A DNA stretch of 35,268 nucleotides from Chthoniobacter flavus (GTDB lineage: Bacteria > Verrucomicrobiota > Verrucomicrobiia > Chthoniobacterales > CAKUMP01), in contig DYRR01000004.1 of NCBI GenBank assembly GCA_020718605.1, positions 1 through 35,268 on the forward strand. The letters are read 5' to 3'. Both the position numbers and the translations under genes were made by a program. Below the pieces are notes generated by a model. That model worked only from the letters and a program-made list of their open reading frames with translations, had not been told where the DNA came from and did not search any database. The stretch's first letter is position 1, and each line of letters starts with the position of its first letter. Of this stretch, positions 1,820 through 34,958 are shown piece after piece.

Positions 1820-2425
1820 TCAGGCCAGGGCCTTCAAGGCCAGGCGGACGAGGTCTTCGCTGGCGACGGTCGGGTCGGCCTGTGCGGCGGCGGATTTTAC
1901 GGCTTTGTGTGCTTCCACCTGTTTGTAGCCCAGGGAGATGAGCGCCAGTACGGCGTCGTTGATGTGCCGGTCGGCTTCACTCGGGGCATGGGCGGCACTG
2001 GCGGCCTCCCACGCGGCGGCCACCCCCACTTTGTCCTTGAGCTCCAGCACGACGCGTTCTGCGGTCTTTTTTCCGAGCCCGCTTATTTTGGAAAGGGACG
2101 CGACATCGGAATCCACCACGCATCCTTTGAAGCGGGTGACGGTCATGCCGCTGAGCACGGCCAGGGCGAGTTTGGGACCGACGCCGCTCACATGGTTGAC
2201 GAGCAGGCGGAACAGGTCGCGTTCCTCGGTCGAGGCAAATCCGTAGAGGATGTGGGCGTCCTCGCGCACGGCGAGATGGGTGAGGAGCTTGACCTGGCCG
2301 CCCGGCGCGGGCAGTTTGTCGAACGTGGAAAGCGGGATCAGCACCCGATAACCGATGCCGCCGACCTGCACCACCACCTGGGTGGGCCATGCTTCCGCCA
2401 GAATACCGTCGAGAAACGCGATCAT
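1820..2425 (-). CDS. ruvA: Holliday junction DNA helicase subunit RuvA
   Basis: 201 residues, the usual RuvA length. RuvA binds four-way DNA junctions as a tetramer and loads the RuvB motor for branch migration in recombinational repair. The OB-fold domain (about 1-64, MIAFLDGILAEAWPTQVVVQ), the tandem helix-hairpin-helix region (about 65-140, with VSGVGPKLALAVLSG and ISGLGKKTAERVVLELKDK) and the flexible C-terminal three-helix domain that contacts RuvB (about 150-201) are all present. The start at MIAFLDG matches the family; the track ORF is extended upstream by a fake N-terminus read antisense to the divergent gene. ruvB and ruvC are not in the window. It ends 12 bp from the RM scar. Confidence 0.97.
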   Translation of the reverse strand: MIAFLDGILAEAWPTQVVVQVGGIGYRVLIPLSTFDKLPAPGGQVKLLTHLAVREDAHILYGFASTEERDLFRLLVNHVSGVGPKLALAVLSGMTVTRFKGCVVDSDVASLSKISGLGKKTAERVVLELKDKVGVAAAWEAASAAHAPSEADRHINDAVLALISLGYKQVEAHKAVKSAAAQADPTVASEDLVRLALKALA

Positions 2426-2454
2426 TTGACGCACCATGTCCGAAACAATAAAAA
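2426..2454 (+). promoter_or_regulatory. Predicted sigma-70-type promoter for the secreted-protein/phosphatase pair
   Basis: TTGACG (2426-2431), a 17-bp spacer and TAAAAA (2449-2454). It starts at the first base outside ruvA. Transcription would begin near 2461, downstream of the ATG at 2436, which favours the GTG at 2469 as the start of the next gene. Confidence 0.5.
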
Positions 2455-2468
2455 ACATCAATCGCGCA

Positions 2469-3116
2469 GTGCGCCCCTCGGGGCGGCTTCGGGCACGTCT
2501 CCTTGTTGCCTGTGTTCTGCTGGTTGTGCGCATGGATGCGCGGGCCCAGCAACCCAGGGTGGAAATCCCAACCTGGCTGGACCCCGACCGCTGGTGTCTG
2601 CAAATGCAGCCCGGATTCCTGCGCCCGCCGGTCTTTCGAAAAATCCCCGGCGCCAAAACCACGGTGGTCGCGGCCGGCACCCTGGGAAGTGAAGGCGGGC
2701 CGCGGGACCTTGCGGCGGCGGAGTTCCGCACTCTTGGAGTGGATTGGGCCGGTTTTTCAGCGCGGGCGGGTGTCAATGCCGATGCGTTGCTGGCACAGAT
2801 CGAGCCGGAATTTTTCCGGGACAAACACGGTTCCATCACGCACGCCCGGCTCCAATCCGACAAACCCTTTGCGGCATTGGTGGTGTTTGCGCCCGGATTC
2901 GGCCGGCGGTTTGAGGACACTCTGGGTCCCGATCCGCTCGTGGCGGTGCCCAACCGGTCCACCGTGTTTGTGTTTCCCAGGCTTGCGGGACCGCACGAGG
3001 CATTCGGGGAGACCGTACTGTCGTTGTATAAAAACTCGGCCTATCCGGCCAGCCTGGAAATTTTCGAATGGCAACCAGAAGGCTTGCGGGCGATGGGCAC
3101 TTATGGCGATGATTGA
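2469..3116 (+). CDS. Secreted protein of unknown function
   Basis: 215 residues from GTG 2469 (226 if ATG 2436 is used). The N-terminus RLRARLLVACVLLVV followed by ARAQQ looks like a Sec signal peptide cut after ARA, so the product is probably periplasmic. The mature part is rich in Phe, Pro and Gly, with no motif I recognise. The promoter-like hexamers lie over the ATG at 2436, so I prefer the GTG. The phosphatase follows after 6 bp, so they are probably co-transcribed; a shared role in phosphate-ester metabolism is only a guess. It is divergent from ruvA. Confidence 0.8.
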   Translation: MRPSGRLRARLLVACVLLVVRMDARAQQPRVEIPTWLDPDRWCLQMQPGFLRPPVFRKIPGAKTTVVAAGTLGSEGGPRDLAAAEFRTLGVDWAGFSARAGVNADALLAQIEPEFFRDKHGSITHARLQSDKPFAALVVFAPGFGRRFEDTLGPDPLVAVPNRSTVFVFPRLAGPHEAFGETVLSLYKNSAYPASLEIFEWQPEGLRAMGTYGDD

Positions 3117-3122
3117 GGCTCC

Positions 3123-4421
3123 ATGAAATTTCTATTGTCCGCTCTGGTCCTTCTCGCCACCTGTCCCCTGTGCGCCGGGGCACCGCCCGCCCCGGGCAGC
3201 GTGATTTTCATCCATCCCGACGGAAGCGGTCTGGGAATGTGGAACGCCCTGCGCATCCATCGCCATGGACCGGATGGCATGACCGAATGGGACAAACTCC
3301 CCCGCACCGCCTTCTATCGCGGACATCTCCGGGACAGCCTCGGGGCCACCTCCCATGCCGGCGCCACCATTCATGCCTACGGCGTGAAAGTTCAGCGCGA
3401 TTCCTTCGGCAAGGACGGCAAAAAATCCCTTCAAAGTGCTTCCGGGTTCGACGGAAGTCTCATGCACGAAGCCATCGCGCGCGGTCTGCCGGTGGGCATG
3501 GTGCAGAGCGGGCACCTTGCCGAGCCCGGCACGGCGGCATTCCTGGCCCGGGTGGACCAGCGCAAGGAGGAGCAGGAGATCGTGCGCCAACTCATCGAGA
3601 GCGGGGCCGATGTGATCCTCGGCGGGGGCGAAGTGCTGTTTCTTCCCGAAGGCGTGCCGGGCCGCCATGGAAAACCCGGGGTGCGCGGGGACGGACTCGA
3701 TCTGTTTGCCAGGGCGCGCGAACTCGGATACCGGGTGGTTTTCAACAGGGATGAGCTTGCCGCCCTTCCCGACGATGCCGGCAAAGTGCTGGGCGTCTTC
3801 GCTTCCGGGCACACCTTCAACGACGTTTCCGAGGAGGAACTCGTCCGCTGCGGGCAAGTTCCCTACCCGGCGGAAATGCCCACACTGGCGGAGATGACAA
3901 CCGCCGCGCTGCGGTTGCTGGCCGCCCGGAACAAGCCGTTTTTTCTCGTGGTCGAGGAGGAGGGAACCGACAACTTTGCAAACACCCAGAATGCATCGGG
4001 CACGCTCGAAGCGCTGGCCCGGGCCGATGCCGCCATCGGAGTGGCCCGCGCGTTTGTGGAAAAGCATCCGCGCACCCTCATGGCCACCGCAGCGGACAGC
4101 GACGCCTCGGGTTTCTGTCTTCTCGACGCGGCGTCCTGGCTTGGGACCGCGAAAAAACTTGGCCAGCCGGAAGTGTTGCCCGCCGTCACGGATCTCGGCG
4201 CCCCGTTCGATGGCAGGGCGGGAGCGGGTGGCGAACCGTTCGTATCCGGTCCCGACAAGAACGGGCGGACCTTCCCCTTTGGCATCGCGTGGACGACCGG
4301 ACTGGACAACTTCGGCGCGGTCGTTTCACGCGCCGGGGGTTACCGTTCGGAGGAATGGCCCGTCCATCTCGACAACACCGCCCTGTTCGGCATTTTTCGC
4401 GCGACCCTTTTTGGGGAGTGA
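3123..4421 (+). CDS. Alkaline phosphatase superfamily protein with altered zinc ligands, secreted
   Basis: 432 residues. Signal peptide MKFLLSALVLLATCPLCAGA, so the protein is exported. The fold of PhoA-type phosphatases is visible in order: metal Asp in HPDGSGLG (D33), nucleophile region TSHAGATIHAYGVK (S77 aligned with the catalytic Ser), EEEGTDNFANTQNASGTLE (about 278-295) and TAADSDASG (about 322-330), then WTTGLDNFG (about 390-397). By motif alignment with E. coli PhoA the Asp/Glu ligands D51, E322, D327 and D369 have counterparts, but H331, H370 and H412 fall on N287, S326 and D395. It may therefore bind a different metal or a different ester, or be non-catalytic. It follows the secreted protein by 6 bp. 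Confidence 0.85.
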   Translation: MKFLLSALVLLATCPLCAGAPPAPGSVIFIHPDGSGLGMWNALRIHRHGPDGMTEWDKLPRTAFYRGHLRDSLGATSHAGATIHAYGVKVQRDSFGKDGKKSLQSASGFDGSLMHEAIARGLPVGMVQSGHLAEPGTAAFLARVDQRKEEQEIVRQLIESGADVILGGGEVLFLPEGVPGRHGKPGVRGDGLDLFARARELGYRVVFNRDELAALPDDAGKVLGVFASGHTFNDVSEEELVRCGQVPYPAEMPTLAEMTTAALRLLAARNKPFFLVVEEEGTDNFANTQNASGTLEALARADAAIGVARAFVEKHPRTLMATAADSDASGFCLLDAASWLGTAKKLGQPEVLPAVTDLGAPFDGRAGAGGEPFVSGPDKNGRTFPFGIAWTTGLDNFGAVVSRAGGYRSEEWPVHLDNTALFGIFRATLFGE

Positions 4422-27698: not shown

Positions 27699-30600
27699 TC
27701 AGCCCTGGGTGGCGTTGCGTTCGAGGAGACGGGCGGTGAGGGTTTTGGCGGGAAGGTCGGGCGGGAAACCGTAGGCTTCGGCGACCGCGGCGTCGAGGGC
27801 GGCATGCGCGGCGGCAAGCCATGCGGGACGGGTGTTGTAGAGCTTGGTGAGTGTGCGTTCCGCAAGCCGGGTCGCACACTCCGCATCGCGGGGCACAAGT
27901 CTCGGGTAACGCGCCATGCCGCCGGTCACATAACGCGCCCATGGACCATCGATGGAGGCCGGGAACTCCAGCACTTCCTCACGGGTCCACTCGGGCGGAT
28001 TGAGCCAGCGCCGCCGCAAGGTGTCCAGTTCCAGCGCCGCCGCCGAGATCCGCCCATGCTGCGCCTGCTGCCCGGACGTGAGTTCATCCGGCGGCATCCG
28101 GTGATCCCAAGGAAACGGGAAGGTCTCGAAACAGGTGGTGGGCGTGTAGCGAAAGCCGGATTCCTTTTCGCGCAACTGCGTGCCTTGCGCGAGCGACCAT
28201 GCTTCGTGGATGCGCGAATGCAGGACGCCGAAAAAGAAATCGTCGGAGCGGGCGAAGACGACCGTTTGGTCATCCGTGATCAGTGGCCAAGTGAACCATG
28301 AAAAAATGCGGTGTTTGGCGACTCGTGGCGTCGCAATAAAGCGGGGAAGATTGGAAATAGAAGCTCTCAACTCCGGGCGAATCCGCTGAAGCTTCCACCA
28401 GTTTTCTTTGAGCCATTTATTCCGGTTGGAATCCCGTGCGGGTTTCACCCTTGAGATGATAATTTCAAAAGGCTTTTCAAACATCTGCGCTTCCGCCCGG
28501 GTCATATCTGAATTATCGACCAGCCATCTTGGTTCACCGCGTCTCAAAATATCCATGCCGTTGCAGATCGGCTTGATGACATCGCTGTTGGGGAGTCCGT
28601 TGGGATTACCGGCCGAGGCCAACATCGCGCGGCCTTCCTCATCGGTGATGTCGAAACTTCCACCCTTGGTTACGCCGATAAAGCCAATACCGGAATTCCC
28701 CGGAAGGACGTTGGCGGTGGCGATATTTGCCGCCGCCGAAAGATTGGCATGGATTTCCCCGACCGGCACTCCATCGAGGACACAAAGGAGCGCGGGCGTC
28801 CCGCCCGCTTCGTTATCCAAATCGGGCGGGACGCCCGCGCTCCTTTGGGGAGCATTCCATTCCTTGCTGCAGAATCCGACCATCGAGATGTGGACGTTTG
28901 CGCCGTCGAGAATCCAATCGCGGTCGCTGACCGCAAAGAAGATGTCCCCCGATTCCTTGATGCGCTTGAGCACCTCGCGGTTTGCGCCGCCCCGGATGCC
29001 CTGGGTGGCGAGCAATCCGGCGCGCTTCACTTTGTCGTCCGCAATGAGTGCGCGGGTTTTCTCGAACCAATAGCAGCAGAGATCCGATTGCCCAGGAAGT
29101 CGGCCATGGAAAACCTTGCGAAGCGATTCCACGTAGTCATCGCCCAATTCACGCCGCATCATTTTGTCGCCCAGAAACGGCGGGTTTCCCACGACCACCA
29201 CCTCATGATCCGCACGGAACGTCGGCCACTGGCGTTCCTTTGGGTTGGCCGGATCGCTCAGGTCCAGCAGGGCGTCCATGAAATGGAAGTTCTCCAATTT
29301 TTTCAGCAGCGGGGTGGTGGTGAGCGGGTAGCCATTGCCCCGATGCCATTGCAGATAGCCGATCCAAAGCGTCATCTGCGCGAGTTCGAACGCGTAGGGA
29401 TTGATCTCGATGCCGTGGAATTGCCACGGGCCGATGCCGGGAAAAAAGCCGGTCTCCAGTCCGTCGCCGCCGCCGAAGAGGATGACTTCCTTTTCCAGAT
29501 CCTTGAGTTTTTGCAGGGCGATGTAGAGGAAATTGCCGGAGCCGCAGGCGGGATCGAGCACGTGCACGCGGGAGAGCCGGAGGAGAAAGGCGTGCTTGAG
29601 GCGTGCGCCTTCTTCGAGCGCCTTGCGCAGGGCGGGACCGGCGGGCGGCTTTGCAAAATCGGCGGGCTTGGGTGTCTTCTTTCCGGTGCGCAGCAGATGG
29701 GTGAGCGTGATTTTCAAAGACTCCCACTCGTGGCGCAGTGGCGCGAGCAGAACGGGGTCGATGAGATCCTCGATGTCGCGGCGTCCGGTGTATTCCGCTC
29801 CGAGCGCGGCGCGGGTGGCGGGATCGAGTCCGCGCTGGAAGAGCGTCCCAAAGATCGAAGCGTCCACCGCGCCCCAGTCGAGCCCGCAGGCGGCATGGAC
29901 AATGTCGAGTTCCGCCGGGGCAAGTTCAAGCACCGTGACATCGGAAAAGAGGCCGCCATTGAAGTGTCGGATTTTTTCGTATTGGAACTCGCCGCCGTCC
30001 GCCATGGCGCGGAACAATTCCCCGGCATACCGCGCGAAACGTTCGGGCTCGCCGCGGGTCTGGCCGACCAGCCGCGAGAACATGTCGGCGGGAAGCAGCC
30101 CGACATCCTCGGCAAACAGGCAGAAAATCATGCGGTCCAGGAAGCGGGCGACGGGTTCGGCGGGCTGACCGCGTCCGCGCAGGCTGCCGGCGAGTCCGGC
30201 GAGCGCGGAGGCCGCGTTGCGGGTCACCGTTTCGGACGTGATGCCCGGGCGGAGTTTGCCGGGGTTGTGAAACAGGGCGTGCAGGGTTTCGAGATTGCGG
30301 GGCTCGGCGAGACCGGCGGAGGTGATGCGCAGGACCCGTTCTGCCGTGCCAGTGAAGTTCGTGTGAATCTCGATGACATCCGTGTCGCAGACCACAAGCA
30401 GCGGCGGGTTTTCCAGCGAGGCGCGGTAGCGGAGCAGTTGATCGTAGGCTTTGGCGAGATTGGCATGGCGGCCTTTGTACTCGAAGGCAAAGGCGCCTTT
30501 TTTCCAGACATCCGCCCAACCGTCGCCGCCCCCGTGCTTTTCGACACCTTTCTCGAAGCAGAAGGATTCGCCGGTCGGGTCCAGTGCGGCGGGAGCGGGA

Positions 30601-30707
30601 TGGCCGGTCAGTGCGCAGAGATCGAGAAAATGCTGCTGGTAGGACGCCCGCTCCGAAAGATCGGTCTTTGCCCATTTCGCGATAAAATCCGCCACGGAAA
30701 GTGCCAT
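27699..30707 (-). CDS. MmeI-like single-chain restriction-modification enzyme (type IIG/IIL), with repeat-derived insert
   Basis: 1002 residues from ATG 30707. N-terminal nuclease of the PD-(D/E)xK type (D66...E76-x-K78 in GWADVWKKGAFAFEYKG), helical spacer (about 100-340), N6-adenine methyltransferase with DPACGSGNFLYIAL (about 385) and NPPF (about 508), then a target-recognition region and C-terminal helices. MmeI-type enzymes cut and methylate as one polypeptide. All catalytic motifs are intact. About residues 621-642 (QRSAGVPPDLDNEAGGTPAL region) are encoded by a palindromic repeat inserted in frame. It heads a same-strand series with the J-domain and HIRAN genes. The exact recognition site cannot be read from sequence. 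Confidence 0.9.
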   Translation of the reverse strand: MALSVADFIAKWAKTDLSERASYQQHFLDLCALTGHPAPAALDPTGESFCFEKGVEKHGGGDGWADVWKKGAFAFEYKGRHANLAKAYDQLLRYRASLENPPLLVVCDTDVIEIHTNFTGTAERVLRITSAGLAEPRNLETLHALFHNPGKLRPGITSETVTRNAASALAGLAGSLRGRGQPAEPVARFLDRMIFCLFAEDVGLLPADMFSRLVGQTRGEPERFARYAGELFRAMADGGEFQYEKIRHFNGGLFSDVTVLELAPAELDIVHAACGLDWGAVDASIFGTLFQRGLDPATRAALGAEYTGRRDIEDLIDPVLLAPLRHEWESLKITLTHLLRTGKKTPKPADFAKPPAGPALRKALEEGARLKHAFLLRLSRVHVLDPACGSGNFLYIALQKLKDLEKEVILFGGGDGLETGFFPGIGPWQFHGIEINPYAFELAQMTLWIGYLQWHRGNGYPLTTTPLLKKLENFHFMDALLDLSDPANPKERQWPTFRADHEVVVVGNPPFLGDKMMRRELGDDYVESLRKVFHGRLPGQSDLCCYWFEKTRALIADDKVKRAGLLATQGIRGGANREVLKRIKESGDIFFAVSDRDWILDGANVHISMVGFCSKEWNAPQRSAGVPPDLDNEAGGTPALLCVLDGVPVGEIHANLSAAANIATANVLPGNSGIGFIGVTKGGSFDITDEEGRAMLASAGNPNGLPNSDVIKPICNGMDILRRGEPRWLVDNSDMTRAEAQMFEKPFEIIISRVKPARDSNRNKWLKENWWKLQRIRPELRASISNLPRFIATPRVAKHRIFSWFTWPLITDDQTVVFARSDDFFFGVLHSRIHEAWSLAQGTQLREKESGFRYTPTTCFETFPFPWDHRMPPDELTSGQQAQHGRISAAALELDTLRRRWLNPPEWTREEVLEFPASIDGPWARYVTGGMARYPRLVPRDAECATRLAERTLTKLYNTRPAWLAAAHAALDAAVAEAYGFPPDLPAKTLTARLLERNATQG
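28784..28846. repeat. Palindromic repeat inserted inside the MmeI-like gene
   Basis: Two perfect 24-bp inverted arms (left from aaaggagcgcgggcgtcccg, 28784-28807; right 28823-28846) around a 15-nt loop, total 63 bp = 21 codons, so the reading frame is kept. The arm core (ggagcgcgggc) is shared with intergenic copies at 20311 and 21789. Confidence 0.9.
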
Positions 30708-30712
30708 GCCGC

Positions 30713-30742
30713 AGGCTATCCGTGGTTGGGCGGCGGATTCAA
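30713..30742 (-). promoter_or_regulatory. Predicted promoter of the MmeI-like gene
   Basis: On the minus strand TTGAAT (30742-30737), 18-bp spacer, TAGCCT (30718-30713). The -10 is identical to the one before the secretion ATPases. Transcription would start at about the ATG itself. Confidence 0.4.
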
Positions 30743-30797
30743 GCCCGCAGAGCATCCGACGCGACGCCTGTGCCCGTGGTGGCGGGATGGTCGGGCT

Positions 30798-32333
30798 TCA
30801 ATGCCGGTCCGGGACGAATCGGCCCTGCCTTTTTGGCAGGGCGGCGGATAAAATGCGTTTCTCCGGTTTGTGTGCGGAAGCGAACGGTCGCAGAAGGGCG
30901 GGCAGTTCGCGGCGTCCGGCCCGCTCAAAATCGGCGGCGAGCGTCGTGCCCGCCTGTTCGCCGGAGATGCCTGTGATTTCGGTCAGATAAACATAGAGCC
31001 GCTCCGCCAGGGTGCCGAGGCTGATGCTGTCGGTGCGGCGCAGTTGGGCGAAAAGCCAGTCGGCGAATCCCATCAGGCAGACAAAAGGCGACGCTCCCGG
31101 AGTGCTCCAGAGCAGGGGAGTGCCGGCGAGGAAATTGCCGCTGTTGCCCACCAGATCCCAATAGCGGACAAACCGCCGCAACCGTTGCATCGTCGGGAAA
31201 TCGATGAGGCGGTTTTTCAGGATTTCGTAAGGCGGGTCCGGCGACCACACCATGGCCCACTCCGCATCGTGCCGGGCGATGGGCACTCCGCGCAGGCGCT
31301 TGAGAATGCCGACCTGGATCTCCTGCGGTCCGAGCCCGATAAGCCGGTCGAATCCGCGCCCGAAACTCTCCATGTCCTCACCGGGCAACCCGACGATGAG
31401 ATCGGCATGCACATGAACTCCTGTCCGTTCCCGCAGAAACCGGAAGTTGTCCTCCAGGCGGTCCATGTTCTGCCTGCGGCTGATCCGTTGAGCCGACGCT
31501 TCGTTGAATGTCTGAATGCCGACTTCGAACTGCAGCGAGCCGGGCGGAAATTTCGCGATCATTTCGCGCAATGCCTCCGGCAGGCGGTCGGGGACCATCT
31601 CGAAATGCACAAACAATCCCGGGGTGAACCGGGCATGAAAAAATTCCAGAATCGCGCGGCCGGTGGCGATTTGCAGATTGAAGGTGCGATCCACAAACTT
31701 GAACTGCCGCCCCCCCCTCGCGAGCAGGGTTTCCATGGAGGCCAGAAACGGATCGAGCGCAAATTGCCGCACCGGGATATCGAGCGAGGACAGGCAGAAC
31801 TCGCAGGAAAACGGACATCCCCGCGACGCTTCCACGTAAAGAATCCGGTGGGCGATGTCCTCGTCGGTGTAATACGCGTAGGGTGTCTCCAGCCTGGCCA
31901 CGTCGGGAAGCTCCGAAGCGATGATTTTTTCCGGAAGCGGATCCCCGCGGAGCAGGTGTGCGCAGATTTCCGCAAATTTCAGATCGGCCTCGCCGGTGAT
32001 CACGTGATCCGCCAGGGCCGTGATGCGCTGTTGTTCCGTCTCGAAGCTCACTTCCGGGCCGCCCAGAATCACGGGGAGATCGGGCCGGATGCGTTTGAGC
32101 AGGCCCACAAGCTCCGTCGTCGGCCCGACGTTCCAGATATACACCCCAAGACCCACGATCCGGGGTTGGAGCGCCAGGATGGCTTCGGCGATTTCCAGCG
32201 GACGCTGTTTTATCTCAAATTCGACGATGCGGGCGGAATCGCGCAGCGGTCCCAGATTGGCGTAGAGATAGCGGAGCCCGAACGAGGCATGGATATAACG
32301 GGCGTTGAGCGTGGCGAGAACGATGTCGGGCAT
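30798..32333 (-). CDS. B12-binding radical SAM protein (DUF4080 type)
   Basis: 511 residues. N-terminal cobalamin-binding-like Rossmann domain (about 1-140, [10 protein letters not shown]), radical SAM core with the cluster motif [10 protein letters not shown] (C173, C177, C180), then a C-terminal region (about 370-500) typical of DUF4080 proteins. Radical SAM enzymes of this group reductively cleave S-adenosylmethionine; the substrate of this subgroup is not established. It starts 12 bp after the alanine racemase stop, on the same strand, and ends the right-hand operon. A small hairpin (gccctgcc-ttttt-ggcagggc, 30822-30842) lies within its last codons. Confidence 0.9.
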
Positions 32334-32345
32334 GGTGGGGGTGCC

Positions 32346-33467
32346 TTATGTGTAAAGGCGGGTTACCCGCTGCTGGATGCCGGTGAAGATTTCCCAGGGA
32401 ACCGTTTCGGCCCGGTGCGCCAGTTCCCAGGCCGGAATGCACTCGTCGCCCTGCCGCCCGAGCAGCACCGCGCTGTCGCCCGCCCTCACTCCGGGCACCG
32501 CCGAGACATCCACCACGATCTGATCCATCGTGATCCGTCCCAGCACCGCGCACCGTCTGCCCCCGAGCAGAACCACGGAACCGCGCCCGGAGAGAATGCG
32601 CGGGTATCCGTCGGCATACCCGGCCGCCAGCGTGGCCACCCGCATCGGTTGCCCGGACACAAAGGTTCGTCCGTAGCTGATCCCCTGTCCGGCCTGGATA
32701 TCCCGCACCAGACCGACACGGGTCTGCCACTCCAGCGCGGGCTGCAGCATGTCTTGGAATTCCGGCAACGGCGACACACCGTACAGCGCGAGGCCCGCGC
32801 GGATCAGATCCGGGGCATGGTCGGGAAAAACCAGCGCCCCGGCGCTGTTGAGTGCGTGGGACATCCGGATCGAGGGACAGGCGTTCCGCACGGCGGCCGA
32901 TAAACCGGAAAATTGCGCGAGTTGGGCGGCGGTGAACTCCGCGTCTTCATCGGCGGAGGGCAGGTGGGTCGCAAATCCCGTGATCCGCAGGCCCGGCAGC
33001 GCGGCGGCGGCTCTTGCGAATTCCACCGCATCGCCGGGTGTGATCCCGGCGCGTCCCATACCGGTATCCACCGCAAGATGCGCTTCCATCCCGCTCGATC
33101 CGGCGAGCACGGAAAACGCCCGGGCCTCCCCGATGTCGGAGAGCACCGGAATAAATCCCGCCGCAGCGACTGCGGCGCGCTCATCCGGCATCACGGGACT
33201 CAGGACAAATACCGGTGTATTCACATGACAGTCCCGCAGTTGCAGGCCCTCTGCGAGATTGGCCACGCCGAACATGGCCACTTCGCCGCAAAGGGCATTG
33301 GCAACCCCGGCCAGACCGTGTCCGTAGGCGTCCGCTTTCACCACCGCCATCACCTGCGCACGGCCGCCCGTGCGCCGCTTGAGCGCGGCCAGATTGTGCC
33401 GGAGTGCCTGTGTGTCGATCACGGCACAACAACGCGGGGCGGGCAACGGCGGAGTGGGATTTGTCAC
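32346..33467 (-). CDS. alr: Alanine racemase
   Basis: 373 residues from a GTG at 33467 overlapping the stop of the upstream gene (GTGA). PLP-dependent L-/D-alanine interconversion for peptidoglycan. Seen: PLP-lysine motif AVVKADAYGHG (K44), HALNSAGAL, DLIRAGLALYGVSP, the second catalytic base region ISYGRTFVSG (Tyr), LAAGYADGYPR and GRITMDQIVVDV. The length is standard. The track ORF of 573 residues is extended through the upstream MauE-like gene in another frame. Its place behind the DUF1573/rhodanese/MauE-like genes is unusual. Confidence 0.95.
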   Translation of the reverse strand: MTNPTPPLPAPRCCAVIDTQALRHNLAALKRRTGGRAQVMAVVKADAYGHGLAGVANALCGEVAMFGVANLAEGLQLRDCHVNTPVFVLSPVMPDERAAVAAAGFIPVLSDIGEARAFSVLAGSSGMEAHLAVDTGMGRAGITPGDAVEFARAAAALPGLRITGFATHLPSADEDAEFTAAQLAQFSGLSAAVRNACPSIRMSHALNSAGALVFPDHAPDLIRAGLALYGVSPLPEFQDMLQPALEWQTRVGLVRDIQAGQGISYGRTFVSGQPMRVATLAAGYADGYPRILSGRGSVVLLGGRRCAVLGRITMDQIVVDVSAVPGVRAGDSAVLLGRQGDECIPAWELAHRAETVPWEIFTGIQQRVTRLYT

Positions 33468-33889
33468 AAACGGCTTTTCCTTTCGAGCCGCAATAAGGAC
33501 ACGGTCAGGGTCAAAAGCGCAAGCGCGCGCATCAGGGCGATGCCGGTTCCCGTGTCGCCATACCGTCCGAAACACCCGCACTCCACATCCAGCCCGCGCA
33601 GCAGAGCCGAGGCGAGGGCCAGCGAGAAGAGGGCAAACATCGCGCAGGCAATGCGCACGGCACCCGCACGCATCGGTCGCGCCCAGAGCACCCCCGCCGT
33701 CACAATCTCCAGCCACGGAAGATACAGCGCACCGGCTGCGGCAACCGGCCATGGCACGAGATGAAACGCAAAGATGCTCCGCGCAAACATCGCGGGATCG
33801 GCAACCTTCATCAGTCCGGCAACAAGCAGCGCGGCGGAGAGGATCGCCCGCGCAACGAATGCGGCGGTCAATGGGAAAGAGCGTGCCAT
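33464..33889 (-). CDS. MauE/DoxX-like redox-associated membrane protein
   Basis: 141 residues from ATG 33889, four predicted membrane helices (SFPLTAAFVARAILSAALLV first). The DVECGCFGRYGDT loop carries the CGCFG cysteine motif of MauE/DoxX-type membrane proteins, which in methylamine dehydrogenase biogenesis help disulfide formation. It overlaps rhodanese upstream (22 bp) and alr downstream. I infer a thiol or electron-transfer role at the membrane. Confidence 0.82.
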   Translation of the reverse strand: MARSFPLTAAFVARAILSAALLVAGLMKVADPAMFARSIFAFHLVPWPVAAAGALYLPWLEIVTAGVLWARPMRAGAVRIACAMFALFSLALASALLRGLDVECGCFGRYGDTGTGIALMRALALLTLTVSLLRLERKSRL

Positions 33890-34314
33890 GCGTCGATGCC
33901 TCCGTGCAGAATGTGAATCTCCCCAAGATCGGAGGACCCGGCCCGCAGTCGCCGGGCGACGCTGCGGCTGGCATCGCACCCGCCCCCGCCGCAATAGACC
34001 ACCACACGCATCCCGGGCTGCCATGCGTCCAGAAAACCGTCGAGAAGATCCTCCCACTGTTCCTCATTCAACAACACCGCACCGGGAATGTGGCTCCGGT
34101 CGAACTCCGCCCGGGACCGGGCATCCACCCACAGCACGGGACCGGACCATGCGGCAATCTGTGACGCCGTCACCTCATCCGCCCGGGGTGCGGGCCGCGT
34201 CCAATCGGGCCGCGACGGATGCACCCAGGTGCTCACCACGGCCGGCAACAGTGCCAGAACGCACAACCGGACCGCCTGTTCCCACGGATGCCATGCCGGG
34301 CGGGGCTCTTTCAT
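33868..34314 (-). CDS. Membrane-anchored rhodanese-like protein
   Basis: 148 residues: a hydrophobic N-terminal segment (about 15-30, VRLCVLALLPAVVSTWV) that can act as anchor or signal, then a rhodanese domain (about 45-148) with VLWVDARSRAEFDRSHIPGA and the active-site loop VVYCGGGGCDASRSVARRL containing the persulfide cysteine. The loop is one to two residues longer than CxxGxR-type sulfurtransferase loops. Rhodaneses carry sulfane sulfur or handle thiols. ATGA overlap with the DUF1573 gene upstream. Confidence 0.88.
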   Translation of the reverse strand: MKEPRPAWHPWEQAVRLCVLALLPAVVSTWVHPSRPDWTRPAPRADEVTASQIAAWSGPVLWVDARSRAEFDRSHIPGAVLLNEEQWEDLLDGFLDAWQPGMRVVVYCGGGGCDASRSVARRLRAGSSDLGEIHILHGGIDAWHALSH

Positions 34315-34958
34315 TTCACCCGGGCCCGCACTTTGAAGACCATGGGCGTGCCGGAAGAAGCATCGGAGAACAACGTGATCGTGGCCCGCCCTTTCTTCAA
34401 TGGAGCGGAGGGAGTTACCGTGACCTCGTATTCACGGCCCGGTTCGATCGGGGCAAGTTCGGCGCGGAACGCCGGATCGGAACTCTCCACACGCACGATG
34501 CGGAGGGGTTCCGCGCGGATGACCTTGAGGCGCGTTTTTTGTGCGGAGGCGGGCTCGTCCGACTTCCAGAGCAGGATGGAGCGGTCCAGATCCGCGACGT
34601 CTTCGATACTCACATAAAGCGGGACGAGATATTTGGCGGGTTCGTCCGTGCGGATCTCGATCGCCTTGCGCTGGAGACCGCGCCGGTCGCCGACGTTGAA
34701 CACCACGGAGAGCCGCGCGGTCCCGCCTGCCTGGAGAACATCCGGCTCCAGTCTGGACGAGGTGCAGCCGCAGGAGTTCAGCAAATGACGCACGGTCACG
34801 GGGGTGGTGCCCGCGTTCCGGACCTCGACAACGCCCTCCACGGTGTCATCCCCGGACTGGGCCGCGAGTTCGAGAACCGCAGGGCTCCACTCCAGGCCCG
34901 CGCGCAGGGGCGTGGCAATCCCAGCGGGCAGGAGGCAGAAAATCAGAATGCGGAACAT
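34311..34958 (-). CDS. DUF1573-domain secreted protein
   Basis: 215 residues from ATG 34958. Signal peptide RILIFCLLPAGIATPLRAG, then an immunoglobulin-like DUF1573 domain (about 30-125) with the family motif LNSCGCTSSRLEPDVLQAGG, and a second beta-rich region (about 130-215). DUF1573 proteins are predicted periplasmic; the CGC motif suggests a thiol role. It starts the operon DUF1573-rhodanese-MauE-like-alr-radical SAM. The track start at 35159 is upstream of the predicted promoter. Confidence 0.88.
   Translation of the reverse strand: MFRILIFCLLPAGIATPLRAGLEWSPAVLELAAQSGDDTVEGVVEVRNAGTTPVTVRHLLNSCGCTSSRLEPDVLQAGGTARLSVVFNVGDRRGLQRKAIEIRTDEPAKYLVPLYVSIEDVADLDRSILLWKSDEPASAQKTRLKVIRAEPLRIVRVESSDPAFRAELAPIEPGREYEVTVTPSAPLKKGRATITLFSDASSGTPMVFKVRARVK

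Follow-up and report, generated by a model that had tools for sequence, protein, structure and literature searches.

In a 35,268-nucleotide (nt) stretch of Chthoniobacter flavus DNA (contig DYRR01000004.1 of assembly GCA_020718605.1, analysed at its full length and referred to below as the window), three consecutive minus-strand genes encode a secreted DUF1573 protein, a rhodanese and a MauE/DoxX-like membrane protein, which together probably represent an undescribed thiol-redox machine. That these proteins would form an envelope sulfur-or-disulfide module is well supported by the conserved order of the genes, their overlapping reading frames and the nearly invariant cysteine pairs of the products, and we favor, with moderate confidence, a single thiol-redox module of the cell envelope that would be built on MauE. 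No description of a DUF1573-rhodanese-MauE operon, and no mention of DUF1573 together with MauE, was found in the open-access literature searched, a scope outside which most subscription papers fall. The domain families themselves are already known, as is a DoxX-rhodanese complex in mycobacteria.

The DUF1573 gene (34311-34958, minus strand) encodes a protein of 215 amino acids (aa) that matches PF07610 with 56.5 bits (cut-off 26.1) and PF22544 with 27 bits. It is followed by the gene for an envelope-anchored, single-domain rhodanese (33868-34314, minus strand; 148 aa; PF00581, 57.5 bits, cut-off 22.2) and by that for the MauE/DoxX-like membrane protein (33464-33889, minus strand; 141 aa; PF07291, 74.1 bits, cut-off 27). 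The DUF1573 and rhodanese frames overlap by 4 nt (ATGA), and those of the rhodanese and MauE by 22 nt. The coordinates and Pfam matches confirm what the first-pass annotation of this DNA had reported here, namely three adjoining genes with overlapping frames and cysteine motifs, which lie in SCGCTS, YCGGGGC and CGCFG. The window spans one entire contig of a 2.46 Mb genome in 284 contigs, and the contig end 310 bp upstream of DUF1573 cuts the upstream end of the operon.

The arrangement of the trio was followed through 57 genomes of the window's order (Chthoniobacterales or equivalent), 141 genomes of its class (Verrucomicrobiae) and 80 named loci; these genomes are mostly draft metagenome-assembled genomes (MAGs) with predicted gene starts, the family labels f1-f51 are anonymous, and the adjacency counts rest on profiles built from the module itself. 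In each of the 20 order genomes whose rhodanese match is strong (profile E below 1e-40), DUF1573, rhodanese and MauE directly follow one another in this order. At the class threshold (E <= 1e-12) a rhodanese match is present in 78 of the 141 genomes, and the complete same-strand trio occurs in at least 13 families (f1, f3, f4, f5, f6, f7, f9, f12, f16, f18, f21, f24 and f27), a count from which divergent CGC variants in f29, f33 and f45 were left out. Rhodanese and MauE adjoin in most of the class families inspected, and DUF1573 is adjacent in most of them too. The exceptions comprise DUF1573 on the opposite strand in some loci, DUF1573-rhodanese without MauE in f15 and f35, and rhodanese-MauE without DUF1573 in some loci of f4, f7, f14 and f46. 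In L152 and L153, from genus g32, which is perhaps Akkermansia, the order is ileS-lspA-DUF1573-rhodanese, the rhodanese has C-x3-C, and MauE is not adjacent.

The same trio arrangement as in the class sample was observed in the 80 named loci, which come from a family-wide contig search of the named collection with an 8-row query alignment. Those with a matching rhodanese belong mainly to Chthoniobacterales/Spartobacteria, including Udaeobacter and Chthoniobacter MAGs, with further loci in Opitutales and Verrucomicrobiales. Three other phyla, Planctomycetota (Planctomycetaceae and Phycisphaeraceae), Hydrogenedentota and Omnitrophota, are represented by single MAGs. The recurrence of the gene order in 20 of 20 order genomes and in many families excludes chance. 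In addition, the gap between DUF1573 and rhodanese is at most 20 nt in 38 of 50 loci (with starts picked by alignment), and rhodanese and MauE overlap or lie within 20 nt in 56 of 63 loci, with a median overlap of 16 nt. This tight spacing, far beyond chance, indicates selection for co-expression of the trio.

MauE is a helical bundle with four long hydrophobic helices, in which CGCFG (residues 104-108) occupies the loop after the third long helix. Residues K28, E61, F88, C104 and C106 do not vary across 88 diverse sequences, and CxC is present in 141 of 142 distinct MauE domains, the sole exception being cut by a contig end; indeed, the MauE proteins of several distant families retain CGC where the full CGCFG pattern is unmatched. 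Positive charges are located at the N-terminus, in the loop that joins the second long helix to the third and at the C-terminus, the other two loops being neutral or negative, and from this positive-inside distribution the CGC loop is predicted to face the periplasm. The AlphaFold model of MauE has a predicted local distance difference test score (pLDDT) of 91.5. No solved relative was found by sequence, and the best Foldseek match against the PDB has an E of 0.2. At E <= 0.01 the only profile match of the window protein is MauE, with neither DsbB (PF02600) nor VKOR (PF07884) among the hits. Sequence comparison nevertheless places MauE as a distant relative of the DoxX proteins: hhalign aligns the two over the first 80 residues with an E of 1.7e-5 and a probability of 79%, and the module MauE loci in three genomes (G004, G005 and G012) score above the DoxX cut-off of Pfam (PF07681), whereas the window protein matches only MauE. 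The window's genome also has a partial second MauE with CGCFG, cut by a contig end (G000:C254:12522-12662, locus L002).

The DUF1573 protein begins with a signal peptide (read from sequence), followed by two tandem HYDIN/ASH-type immunoglobulin (Ig) domains, the first of which carries SCGCTS (residues 62-67) with the pair C63 and C65. Among PDB folds, its AlphaFold model (mean pLDDT 92.6) is matched best by ciliary HYDIN-type Ig domains (E 2.8e-10); a sequence search for a solved relative of the whole protein returned none. CxC is present in 132 of 135 distinct DUF1573 domains, and the three without it are cut by contig ends. DUF1573 selenoproteins carry UGC at the position of CGC (PMC9312934, PMC13188914), which by analogy suggests redox use of the CGC site. 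OS_HP2 is one such DUF1573 selenoprotein, from which the window protein differs in scoring 31.4 bits against NF041425, under the cut-off of 100, and in having no selenocysteine codon.

Paired and nearly invariant cysteines outside a thioredoxin fold could also serve to handle metal, in which case the two CGC motifs and C-x4-C would bind a soft metal (Cu(I), for instance) to be exported, stored or delivered to an envelope enzyme. An FTR1-type iron permease gene stands after the alanine racemase gene (alr) in L120 and L146, and a DoxX-like gene is found in an H. influenzae cluster with COG3220/UPF0276 proteins (PMC7907618). However, no conserved His or Met lies beside the cysteine pairs, FTR1 is confined to part of one family, and no metal neighbor recurs; we consider metal handling improbable.

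The rhodanese has an N-terminal hydrophobic anchor, likewise read from the sequence, and an active-site loop YCGGGGC (C-x4-C) with C108 as active-site Cys and C113 as the second cysteine. Both loop cysteines are present in 158 of 162 distinct rhodaneses, 157 by pattern and one as RCDARSC. In the other four (L008, L019, L165 and L185) both cysteines are missing, and no copy lacks just one, so that the loop cysteines appear to be kept or lost as a pair; this all-or-none loss is consistent with the two cysteines acting jointly. As a control, the ordinary rhodaneses of the order were found to have mostly Arg where the second cysteine would stand (as in CKSGYRS and CHHGMRS), whereas the module rhodaneses in the same sample have C-x4-C in three of three cases. 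Two of about 20 ordinary rhodaneses, L225 (CGSPKC) and L227 (CNGIDC), have C-x4-C with no detectable MauE adjacent, and are possibly detached members of the module. The same spacing is seen in TsoB, a rhodanese/DsbD fusion-like selenoprotein with UxxxxU (PMC9312934, PMC13188914) that is named as joined to a DsbD-like membrane domain (PMC13188914); TsoB is a selenoprotein and a single-chain fusion, whereas the trio uses cysteines and separate genes.

Among the traits of thiosulfate sulfurtransferases, the rhodanese domain and the active-site Cys are present in the window protein, but the loop-closing basic residue (Arg) is not. This bears on a sulfane-sulfur (persulfide) relay, in which the rhodanese would form a persulfide, the second cysteine would release or pass on the sulfur, and transfer of electrons or sulfur through the membrane would fall to MauE/DoxX, as happens when sulfide or thiosulfate is handled. 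Such a relay would draw on the rhodanese fold and on the relationship of MauE to DoxX, a domain of archaeal sulfur oxidation proteins (PMC6930017), and in the Akkermansia-like L153 the cluster continues directly into sufS, encoding the SufS cysteine desulfurase, which starts ~7 nt after the rhodanese gene. On the other hand, the module rhodaneses have Cys where the ordinary ones mostly have Arg, the sister locus L152 has no SufS neighbor, and no sulfur-oxidation neighbor recurs among the labelled flanking genes. A persulfide relay is thus unlikely in our view.

The first-pass annotation had read the three proteins as a single periplasmic sulfur or disulfide relay, and of this reading the one envelope module is well supported by gene order, overlaps and cysteine pairs, while the relay is a proposal. 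From the same three features and the predicted topology we infer a physical complex, at whose core MauE, small and helical, would sit in the membrane with its CGC pair on the predicted periplasmic side. The rhodanese would be anchored in the membrane of MauE and its two loop cysteines would form an exchangeable disulfide, the resolving cysteine replacing the active-site arginine. DUF1573, secreted and soluble, would serve as an Ig-fold thiol protein that gives electrons to clients, or takes electrons from them, through its CGC pair. Electrons would thus pass along a putative chain from clients through DUF1573, rhodanese and MauE to the quinone pool, or in the reverse direction. The oxidizing direction, from thiols to quinone, is only slightly favored, because MauE is thought to support the disulfides of methylamine dehydrogenase and because the order is without DsbB. 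Redox-gene neighbors at some loci, a DsbH-like protein in L147 and a superoxide dismutase in L156, also speak for a thiol-redox module.

The role in methylamine dehydrogenase, where MauE is speculated to aid disulfide formation (PMC7794033), concerns a protein of the same Pfam family (PF07291) in a distinct setting. The partners of MauE in the trio are DUF1573 and the rhodanese, no mau genes lie on the readable side of the contig, and no mau families were found among the neighbors scanned in related loci. Another analogy is offered by DoxX-SseA-SodA of M. tuberculosis, a membrane-associated oxidoreductase complex tied to thiol redox balance (PMC6930017, PMC7907618), in which a small DoxX-superfamily membrane protein is partnered with a rhodanese-family thiol protein; moreover, L156 has a superoxide dismutase after MauE. 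In contrast, the trio's rhodanese consists of one anchored domain bearing two loop cysteines, its membrane protein, a distant DoxX relative, belongs to the MauE branch and carries CGC, the secreted DUF1573 Ig protein comes as an extra component, and superoxide dismutase is not adjacent in the window, having been seen in L156 only. The best reading of this comparison is that the trio may work like the DoxX-SseA-SodA complex without being a member of it.

DsbB was found in none of the 57 order genomes, the window's genome included. VKOR is present in eight, six of which bear the trio, and is absent from the window's genome; 14 of the 20 trio genomes, again including that of the window, are without both DsbB and VKOR. 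With no DsbB and scarce VKOR in the order, an oxidizing role for the trio is plausible. How envelope thiol redox is set in the soil bacteria of this order (Udaeobacter and Chthoniobacter relatives), which lack DsbB and mostly VKOR, is the question at stake, and a compact, class-wide module with nearly invariant cysteine pairs offers three concrete proteins to test. Its study would also provide a first functional handle on DUF1573, for which the open-access literature searched yielded just three papers, each with one or two mentions. In a wider reading, MauE, rhodanese and DUF1573 would constitute a general route by which Verrucomicrobiota and related phyla form (or reduce) envelope disulfides, one that takes over the task of DsbB and VKOR while lying outside both families, the Ig-fold protein and the rhodanese standing in for thioredoxin-fold partners. 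Like DsbB and VKOR, MauE is a small helical membrane protein with an exposed cysteine pair and a proposed analogous task, but it matches neither family nor the solved structures of either, and has CxC rather than CxxC. We advance this general pathway only tentatively and hold it to be doubtful. As a strict substitute for DsbB or VKOR the trio is unsupported, its distribution in the 57 order genomes not matching such a role. A link to aerobic respiration was likewise set aside, since a heme-copper oxidase is present in 56 of the 57 genomes and is thus not discriminating.

Several observations weigh against a MauE-based thiol-redox module. Many order genomes are without DsbB, VKOR and the trio alike, and the six trio genomes with VKOR add to this, so that the trio is no simple replacement for either enzyme. 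The MauE model resembles no solved structure, and DsbB and VKOR are not among the 50 Foldseek matches listed. Four copies of the rhodanese are without their cysteines although MauE retains its own, and the Akkermansia-like genomes have DUF1573-rhodanese without an adjacent MauE, both of which argue that the three-step relay is not obligatory. Finally, the neighboring genes are too variable to name a client. The cysteine-less copies could also be accommodated if the rhodanese were a regulatory or structural scaffold and the redox chemistry were performed by MauE and DUF1573 alone, since it is in L165, L185, L008 and L019 that the rhodanese lacks both cysteines while MauE keeps CGC. This is hard to reconcile with the intact pair in 158 of 162 rhodaneses or with the retention of DUF1573-rhodanese without MauE in the Akkermansia-like genomes, and we give the scaffold little credence. 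L165 and L185, both of family f27, in which DUF1573 as well as MauE keep their cysteines, provide a natural test of a catalytic role for the rhodanese within the thiol-redox module.

Downstream of MauE, the window continues with alr, a full alanine racemase gene (32346-33467, minus strand; TIGR00492, 287.5 bits, cut-off 168; PF01168 and PF00842 over their full length), and with a gene for a B12-binding radical S-adenosylmethionine (SAM) protein (DUF4080; 30798-32333, minus strand; PF02310, PF04055 and PF13311). All five gene products pass the curated Pfam cut-offs, and NCBIfam agrees for alr. The first-pass annotation had the overlapping frames run on into alr and then the radical SAM gene; MauE and alr do overlap by 4 nt (GTGA), but between alr and the radical SAM gene there is a 12-nt gap and no overlap. 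A promoter and terminator scan of the cluster yielded no sigma-70-like site and a terminator count at chance level, and thus neither supports nor refutes shared transcription.

The alr gene, the sole alanine racemase gene in the window's genome, directly follows MauE in eight of the 20 strong-trio order genomes, namely that of the window (f1), G002 (f3) and six of seven f5 genomes, and also in L120 and L124, both of which group with f5 in the tree. In f4, f6, f9 and f12, and likewise in the other class families sampled, alr does not follow MauE. In a FastTree phylogeny of the three module proteins the alr-linked lineages f1, f3 and f5 stand apart, with weak deep support, a topology that fits a single origin of the linkage as well as several. 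Coupling to alanine racemase, which the first-pass annotation had presented as part of the arrangement, was therefore rejected as a general property, the adjacency being confined to these three families. Eight other alr-linked loci (L120, L124, L142-L146 and L160) all lack the radical SAM gene after alr. Thus, within the loci examined the five-gene order is unique to the window, while the trio recurs widely.

These data also bear on the idea that the trio, alanine racemase and the radical SAM protein make up one pathway joining envelope redox to cell-wall synthesis. The frames overlap in the window's genome and the alr adjacency persists in three families, but the absence of alr beside the trio in the remaining sampled families, and of an adjacent radical SAM gene in every other locus seen, largely refutes such a pathway on grounds of gene order, leaving it with very little probability. 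Rather, the single-copy alr is a housekeeping neighbor outside the conserved module that probably shares the transcript of the trio in some lineages, and with this the puzzle of a cell-wall enzyme in the cluster mostly dissolves.

The genes upstream and downstream of the trio differ by lineage, and a fixed partner gene was rejected for this reason. They include dTDP/GDP-sugar enzymes, S8 peptidases with a CAP-domain protein, a trypsin-like/TonB protein, DUF2231-Rieske proteins, PagL, a Clp protease, the FTR1 permease, a DsbH-like thioredoxin protein and superoxide dismutase, with the lspA-ileS flank in the Akkermansia-like genomes. In many Chthoniobacterales (L062-L118), either GDP-mannose dehydratase and RmlD-like genes or genes for large S8 peptidases and a CAP-domain protein lie just before the trio. 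In L147 (f5) the DsbH-like protein (2184-4376), with a weak TsoB match, directly follows MauE, and alr is found ~3.5 kb further on; its f5 counterpart in L145 (268-2388), which comes after alr, matches PF03190 and, weakly, TsoB. The f5 loci L143 and L144 have a protein of ~710-730 aa after alr, the same length as the DsbH-like proteins of L145 and L147. In L156 (4780-6346), a variant of the module, the rhodanese is cysteine-less and the Fe/Mn superoxide dismutase gene comes after MauE. In the window itself, an MmeI-like single-chain restriction-modification protein is encoded at 27699-30755 (minus strand), 42 nt past the radical SAM gene and on the same strand, and comprises the MmeI N-terminal, helical spacer, methyltransferase and target-recognition domains.

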